A stretch of DNA of 64,000 bases from Candidatus Latescibacterota bacterium (GTDB taxonomy: Bacteria; JAAXHH01), in the NCBI GenBank assembly GCA_012270975.1, contig JAAXHH010000034.1, positions 124,001-188,000 of the forward strand, in the 5' to 3' direction. The translations under genes were made by a program, and so were the position numbers. The notes beneath the pieces are model-generated. The model saw only the letters and a list, made by a program, of their open reading frames with translations. It had not been told where the DNA came from and did not search any database. How positions within the stretch are numbered: the stretch's first letter is position 1; each line of letters starts with the position of its first letter. Positions 62,833 through 63,837 of this stretch are shown here, piece by piece.

Positions 62833-63120
62833 CTACGATACGATACCCAGGATGTCCTCTTCCCGCATCATGAGGTATTCGGTATCATCCAGATTGACTT
62901 CCGTGCCGGAGTACTTGCCAAAGAGGATCTTGTCGCCGACCTTGACTTCCAGCCCCACGCGGTCGCCGTTGTCGCCGACGCGTCCCGGACCGGCCGCCAC
63001 GACCTCGCCCTGCTGCGGCTTTTCCTTGGCCGTATCGGGAATGATGATACCGCCGCGCTGTACCTCTTCCTCCTCGAGGCGCTTGACCAGGACCCGGTCG
63101 CCCAAAGGTTGTACGTTCAT
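62833..63120 (-). CDS. groES: Co-chaperonin GroES
   Basis: 95 residues. Starts [36 protein letters not shown], including the mobile loop, and ends [30 protein letters not shown] lies 8 bases before the ATG. First gene of the groESL operon. Regulation: see the promoter and palindrome entries. Confidence 0.96.
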
Positions 63121-63486: not shown

Positions 63487-63515
63487 CAAAAACCCCGCTC
63501 CTGGAAGCGGGGTTT
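63487..63515 (-). terminator. Rho-independent terminator of the small proline-rich gene
   Basis: Arms AACCCCGC (63491-63498) and GCGGGGTT (63507-63514) with an 8-base loop. On the minus strand the stem is followed by TTTTTGGTT. It lies 37 bases after the stop of the proline-rich ORF and would prevent read-through into the groES region. Confidence 0.75.
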
Positions 63516-63551
63516 GAGTTCCAGTTATAGTTGGATCACGGGCTTCAGGGA

Positions 63552-63710
63552 CTACCTGGGTTTGGGGGGTGGCTTCAGGGCGCTACCCACGTTGAGAGGT
63601 TTCGGATTCGCAGGTCTGTTCGGATTAGGTTTTGGTCTGAATCCCCGTGGGTTTATGTTCCTGCGAGTTGGCCCGTACCCTTTTTCTGGAGGTTGGGGTG
63701 TTTTTGACAT
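63552..63710 (-). CDS. Small proline-rich basic protein (52 residues)
   Basis: ATG at 63710 with GAGGAG seven bases upstream, TAG at 63552, then a strong terminator. The protein begins MSKTPQPPEKGYGPTRRN. It is rich in Pro, Arg, Lys, Asn and Gly, with the stretch RPKPNPNRPANPKP and ends LKPPPKPR. It has no predicted membrane segment or cysteine. The good ribosome site, clean terminator and one-sided composition support a real gene, despite its size. Function unknown: possibilities are a nucleic-acid-binding or SH3-partner peptide, or a secreted peptide resembling proline-rich antimicrobials. None can be settled from sequence. Confidence 0.65.
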   Translation of the reverse strand: MSKTPQPPEKGYGPTRRNINPRGFRPKPNPNRPANPKPLNVGSALKPPPKPR

Positions 63711-63837
63711 TTGACTGCTCCTCTTCCTTAATCGGAATGAATTCTACTGAAGAAATCTCCCCACTCGAAAGGAAAACACCACGACCCTGGGGAATCCAGT
63801 TATTCAGTCTCCACTACTGATTGTGCCGCGTTGTTCC

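Follow-up and report, generated by a model that had tools for sequence, protein, structure and literature searches.

Short proline-rich proteins encoded together with a DUF6338 gene have been described in Pseudomonas stutzeri, where a 2023 study detected three of them by mass spectrometry (PMC10433244). These proteins, SEP1, SEP2, and SEP5, are shorter than 50 aa and were predicted to form an operon with DUF6338 (PMC10433244). The authors called them species-restricted and not conserved outside P. stutzeri, and named antimicrobial roles among the functions suggested (PMC10433244). Two other systems invite comparison. The proline-rich antimicrobial peptides of the apidaecin class are short Pro/Arg-rich chains, like the peptide described here. 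LSm domains that bind linear peptides, as in LSM14 with 4E-T (6f9w) and in Edc3 (6am0), set a precedent for a short linear motif serving as an LSm ligand.

The window, by which we mean the whole 64,000-nucleotide stretch of DNA analysed (G000:C116:124001-188000), belongs to a metagenome-type assembly (G000) that comprises 4.06 Mb in 160 contigs. The 52-residue proline-rich ORF proposed there by the initial annotation, together with its GAGGAG and ATG, was confirmed (Table 1). The peptide contains two G[YF]xP motifs, GYGP and GFRP, and has a basic, PP-rich C-terminus. It thereby falls within the motif definition used below (at least one G[YF]xP, 25–130 aa, at least 10% Pro). Like the P. stutzeri proteins, the peptides of this kind are short, proline-rich, and encoded with a DUF6338 gene. 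Unlike those proteins, which were reported from P. stutzeri only, they span several phyla and share a common motif, and at the window locus the DUF6338 gene is reduced to a remnant.

Table 1. Features of the peptide locus (window coordinates)
Feature	Position	Strand	Description	Basis
groES	62833..63120	minus	host gene flanking the cassette downstream	ORF listing
Terminator-like hairpin	63490..63515	minus	closes the cassette; kept in relatives	RNA folding
Proline-rich peptide ORF	63552..63710	minus (63710 to 63552)	52 codons/aa, MSKTPQPPEKGYGPTRRNINPRGFRPKPNPNRPANPKPLNVGSALKPPPKPR	ORF listing, genus homologues, dN/dS
DUF6338 gene remnant	63711..63804	minus	~31 C-terminal codons, NNWIPQGRGVFLSSGEISSVEFIPIKEEEQ	alignment with the intact G003, G010, and G005 copies
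Shine-Dalgarno GAGGAG	63718..63723	minus	7 nt ahead of the ATG; also codes for some of the Glu residues that end the eroded DUF6338 gene	

The predicted terminator was likewise found, as a hairpin that begins 36 nt past the stop codon, with an 11-bp stem (−19.4 kcal/mol, z = −3.76) followed by a T-rich tail; a simple terminator scan of the minus strand did not flag it. The stem was found again in five relatives, and in G005 it carries substitutions on both sides. The peptide is strongly hydrophilic (GRAVY −1.6; highest 11-residue Kyte-Doolittle mean 0.02), and a search for a signal peptide or hydrophobic stretch found none. It matched no Pfam, NCBIfam, PHROGs, or PADLOC model, and no match was obtained by tblastn of the peptide against plasmids or by blastn of the peptide region against E. 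coli genomes. A literature search for GYQP strings returned incidental matches only; one in the split-hipA literature was rejected as a tryptic peptide. The suggestion of a new peptide class is upheld by the lack of a family model, although the peptide is one of a widespread, recurrent kind.

The Pro/Arg/Lys-rich composition, together with the antimicrobial role named by the P. stutzeri authors (PMC10433244), could point to a secreted or intracellular proline-rich antimicrobial peptide. We consider this very improbable. The window peptide differs from the apidaecin class in lacking a secretion signal or any hydrophobic stretch, in carrying G[YF]xP repeats, and in the link of its family to a membrane protein. 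Its constant neighbour is DUF6338 and not an exporter or modification enzyme. The idea of a secreted peptide therefore found no support, and no export or modification genes lie beside it; the ORF is flanked by groES and by a gene for a dehydrogenase, and in relatives by DUF6338.

Homologues of the window peptide were identified in 5 of 11 same-genus genomes (G003, G008, G010, G005, and G011, the last of these frameshifted) at 75–94% identity; close relatives of the locus carry the name of Gemmatimonadetes MAGs. Conservation of the reading frame, the check on which the initial annotation had staked its claim, was examined by the Nei-Gojobori method. The frame was conserved, with dN/dS of 0.11–0.26 and pS up to 0.61 in same-genus pairs other than G003/G008. 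That pair gave 0.34, and is too close to be informative, with one synonymous and one nonsynonymous change. The window peptide itself showed dN/dS of 0.13–0.15 against G003 and G008, based on few changes, and prophage peptides showed 0.02–0.06 in three informative pairs (pS 0.51–0.70). The peptide frame is under purifying selection, and the window ORF is a genuine coding gene. A chance ORF in GC-rich DNA was ruled out by the shuffles, control ORFs, and dN/dS. We also rejected a reading of the ORF as the C-terminal end of the gene upstream; the two lie in different frames in the intact pairs, and a fusion occurs only in G006.

In G003, G010, and G005, the peptide start lies within a few nucleotides of, or overlaps, the stop codon of a DUF6338 gene of ~220 aa. 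Two full-length copies match PF19865 (E = 1.9e-28 and 1.4e-28), and the G005 copy ends at a contig edge. The window genome has suffered a ~0.6-kb deletion, from just ahead of the DUF6338 start to ~31 codons before its end (junction relative to the G003 sequence, GAGACTGA/ATAACTGG). The ORF in the window consequently adjoins only this remnant; an intact DUF6338 gene lies directly 5' in the three orthologues. The Shine-Dalgarno sequence accordingly falls within the Glu-rich end of the lost gene too, where GAGGAG encodes part of its EEE tail. The translation signal seen initially is therefore present, but it is not an isolated leader. Similarly, the ORF was rightly recognised as real, but its eroded upstream DUF6338 gene and its status as the second gene of a cassette were missed.

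The cassette is flanked on one side by groES and on the other by a divergently oriented gene for an Ldh_2-type dehydrogenase, which starts just past the end of the window. In G001, G002, G006, and G007, the groES-dehydrogenase interval is free of the cassette, and the gap is 435–481 bp versus 905 bp in the window genome. G005 carries the cassette at another location, and its own groES site is without an intact cassette. These cassette-free sites and the other location in G005 indicate that the cassette is mobile; of its two genes, the ORF is the second. Two paralogous cassettes (L026:5228-7059 and L028:5039-6851) have insertion points other than groES, and adjoin exonuclease III-like and topoisomerase-like genes, as judged from their sequences only.

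Decay is also visible in relatives. G008 has undergone a separate deletion that left ~14 DUF6338 codons, and the C-terminus of its orphan peptide is frameshifted; in G011, both genes are frameshifted. With its DUF6338 partner deleted, the peptide gene of the window is probably a recently orphaned relic in an eroding cassette, one that is still translatable; the detection of the P. stutzeri proteins by mass spectrometry supports its translation by analogy only (PMC10433244). A P39L-type (Pro-to-Leu) change in the PPN of an otherwise constant PKPPN, along with the frameshifted G008 orphan, suggests relaxed selection. We put the chance that the window ORF has become a non-functional remnant slightly above even, a reading compatible with the explanation of the family preferred below. 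The deleted partner, the Pro-to-Leu change, and the broken genes in G008 and G011 favour it. The intact ORF, Shine-Dalgarno sequence, and hairpin argue for continued function, as do the low dN/dS values, few as the underlying changes are, and the presence of a second DUF6338 gene in the window genome (C104). This second gene is divergent (G000:C104:37062-37670; locus L039) and has its own 39-aa proline-rich ORF (MMAKEPVPPPRKPITTRGITPKPPNVVKPPPPPPPPPKK) directly 3', which lacks G[YF]xP and contains RGITPKP.

The deletion of DUF6338 with retention of the peptide would also be explained by a toxin-antitoxin-like pair, with DUF6338 acting as a membrane toxin and the peptide or peptides as its antidote. 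The peptide ORF was retained after DUF6338 deletion in both G000 and G008, and a Pantoea plasmid carries a frameshifted DUF6338 with an intact peptide. Lone two-gene cassettes occur in prophages, and in the P. stutzeri proteomics, the peptides were abundant and DUF6338 was undetected (PMC10433244). However, these cases are few, the C-terminus of the G008 orphan is frameshifted, and up to three tandem peptides would be unusual for an antidote. Moreover, the same proteomics left out membrane fractions (PMC10433244). We regard this arrangement as unlikely.

The pairing extends well beyond the window locus. Within the genus, G[YF]xP peptides were also found 3' of DUF6338 paralogues (G003:C31, G011:C212, G011:C23, and G006:C1). 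On plasmids, DUF6338 genes with such a peptide next to them were found in Sphingomonas, Mesorhizobium, Acinetobacter, Proteus, Fluviibacter, Pantoea, Rhodococcus, and Streptomyces, and a Klebsiella phage record shows the same arrangement. With an Acinetobacter-type alignment as the query, we recovered 25 DUF6338 loci in viral contigs, nearly all with at least one G[YF]xP peptide; viral scans with the genus or the Rhodococcus DUF6338 as the query gave no match. The hosts of the pair comprise Gemmatimonadota, Pseudomonadota, and Actinomycetota, as well as plasmids and prophages.

After clustering at 80%, we searched 40 DUF6338 loci for ORFs of 25–130 aa between positions −50 and +330 relative to the DUF6338 stop. 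An ORF with G[YF]xP and at least 10% Pro was present in 30 of the 40, versus 0.2 expected from dinucleotide shuffles, 1 on the antisense strand, and 2 among 258 control regions that follow other ORFs at these loci. The motif had been noticed in part of the 40 loci before counting, and the prophage loci are thus the cleaner test. Several exceptions were near misses, namely L079 (GYQP, 8% Pro), L073 (GYVP, 9% Pro), L060, L115 (44-aa proline-rich ORF), and L072, where a GYQP peptide lies 3' of a frameshifted DUF6338. Another, L008, is the in-frame DUF6338-peptide fusion. In the G006 fusion, a truncated DUF6338 C-terminal domain is joined in frame to a GYxP peptide (L048 / L027:6136-6591, G006:C1:2434xxx; 151-aa frame); lying within an N-terminally truncated gene, it may be a pseudogene. 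The peptide is absent from a tRNA-linked DUF6338 subfamily of the same genus (L044, L047, and L050; G006:C2, G003:C2, and G011:C198), whose genes adjoin tRNA-Val and tRNA-Leu genes. A DUF6338 scan of the phylum of G043 placed 1 of 195 genomes above the cut-off, with downstream ORFs that include a proline-rich one without the motif, and a scan of two small phyla gave no match.

A set of 46 non-redundant peptides (median 53 aa, mean 17% Pro, mean net charge +4.5) contained 95 motifs. Tyr occupies the aromatic position in 86 of these motifs and Gln the variable position in 63, mostly as GYQP. The C-terminus is usually PP with Lys/Arg, and 21 of the 46 end in PKKP. In L055, L061, L091, L105, and L110, a single DUF6338 is followed by two or three GYxP peptides in tandem, each different from the others, resembling the three-peptide operon of P. 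stutzeri. The window peptide belongs to an unnamed kind of hydrophilic, disordered-looking micro-protein with 1–4 G[YF]xP repeats, whose genes come immediately after DUF6338 in three or more phyla. These peptides are too diverse to prove a single ancestry, and convergence on the motif is possible. Provided that the SEP sequences carry G[YF]xP, the cross-phylum pattern argues against their restriction to P. stutzeri.

DUF6338 has a family model (PF19865), unlike the peptide, and we modelled two of its members with AlphaFold2: L023 (17 sequences, pLDDT 74, pTM only 0.48) and L099 (22 sequences, pLDDT 80, pTM only 0.60). Both models open with long helices, which we interpret as membrane helices, and place a beta barrel of ~70 residues at the C-terminus. 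Sm/LSm proteins took the top Foldseek ranks for both (best E values of 5e-4 and 9e-4, the leading hits reaching a TM by target of ~0.7), including LSM14 with 4E-T (6f9w) and a decapping complex with Edc3 (6am0). DUF6338 is therefore predicted to combine a membrane N-terminal half with an Sm/LSm-like C-terminal barrel. LSM14 and Edc3 differ from it in being soluble eukaryotic proteins, with resemblance at the level of the predicted fold and no sequence relation shown.

As these matches include a peptide-bound LSm domain and the Edc3 complex, we propose that the repeated Gly-Tyr/Phe-x-Pro motifs may dock as linear ligands onto the Sm-like domain of DUF6338. The two proteins would be co-translated from a single mRNA, and docking would control the assembly or activity of the membrane protein. 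Overall, we favour, with a probability of roughly 60%, a genuine DUF6338-linked micro-protein that is a candidate ligand of the Sm-like domain and has been orphaned at this locus.

Sm/LSm domains commonly bind RNA. The peptide might instead be a small, RNA chaperone-like nucleic-acid-binding protein, perhaps passing RNA to the Sm-like domain, as its typical positive charge and the fold predicted for DUF6338 would allow. Nevertheless, the conserved G[YF]xP is no known RNA-binding motif, and neutral or acidic members exist, such as that of Streptomyces L074. We judge this role distinctly improbable.

The pair moves as a compact cassette through plasmids, prophages, and islands, often near anti-phage genes. 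On the Proteus penneri plasmid pPp47 (L059), Tn7-like transposition genes lead into DUF6338, which is followed in turn by genes for a GYxP peptide, a ThsB-like TIR protein, and a caspase; TIR and caspase genes also neighbour L058. Among the other plasmid neighbours are a CBASS cyclase accompanied by a 2TM/SLATT effector (L054) and, at L055, ThiF/JAB proteins, to which L061 and L077 have related arrangements; L074 adjoins a CHAT protein gene and L075 a type I restriction gene. PADLOC defence models matched neighbouring genes only, and neither DUF6338 nor the peptide. Such neighbourhoods are only suggestive of a link to anti-phage immunity, as defence genes abound on plasmids and prophages in any case. 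From them we infer that the peptide is possibly an immunity accessory. More broadly, though with considerable doubt, DUF6338 and the GYxP micro-protein may form an unrecognised, horizontally mobile module that serves as an autonomous or accessory immunity component. Its Sm-like protein, anchored in the membrane, would be assembled or gated by the disordered peptides acting as linear-motif ligands. Peptides like the supposedly newborn, species-specific ones would then be part of a multi-phylum system.

DUF6338 is widespread yet uncharacterised, and its small partner has been overlooked by every profile library searched. The pairing provides a biochemical handle, consisting of a domain and a linear motif that are both predicted, and it suggests a simple annotation rule: a G[YF]xP ORF should be sought within ~50 nt 3' of DUF6338. 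The pattern also suggests revising the view that the proline-rich small proteins encoded with DUF6338 in P. stutzeri are confined to that species. Should the defence context be borne out, the pair would represent a new membrane component of anti-phage islands.
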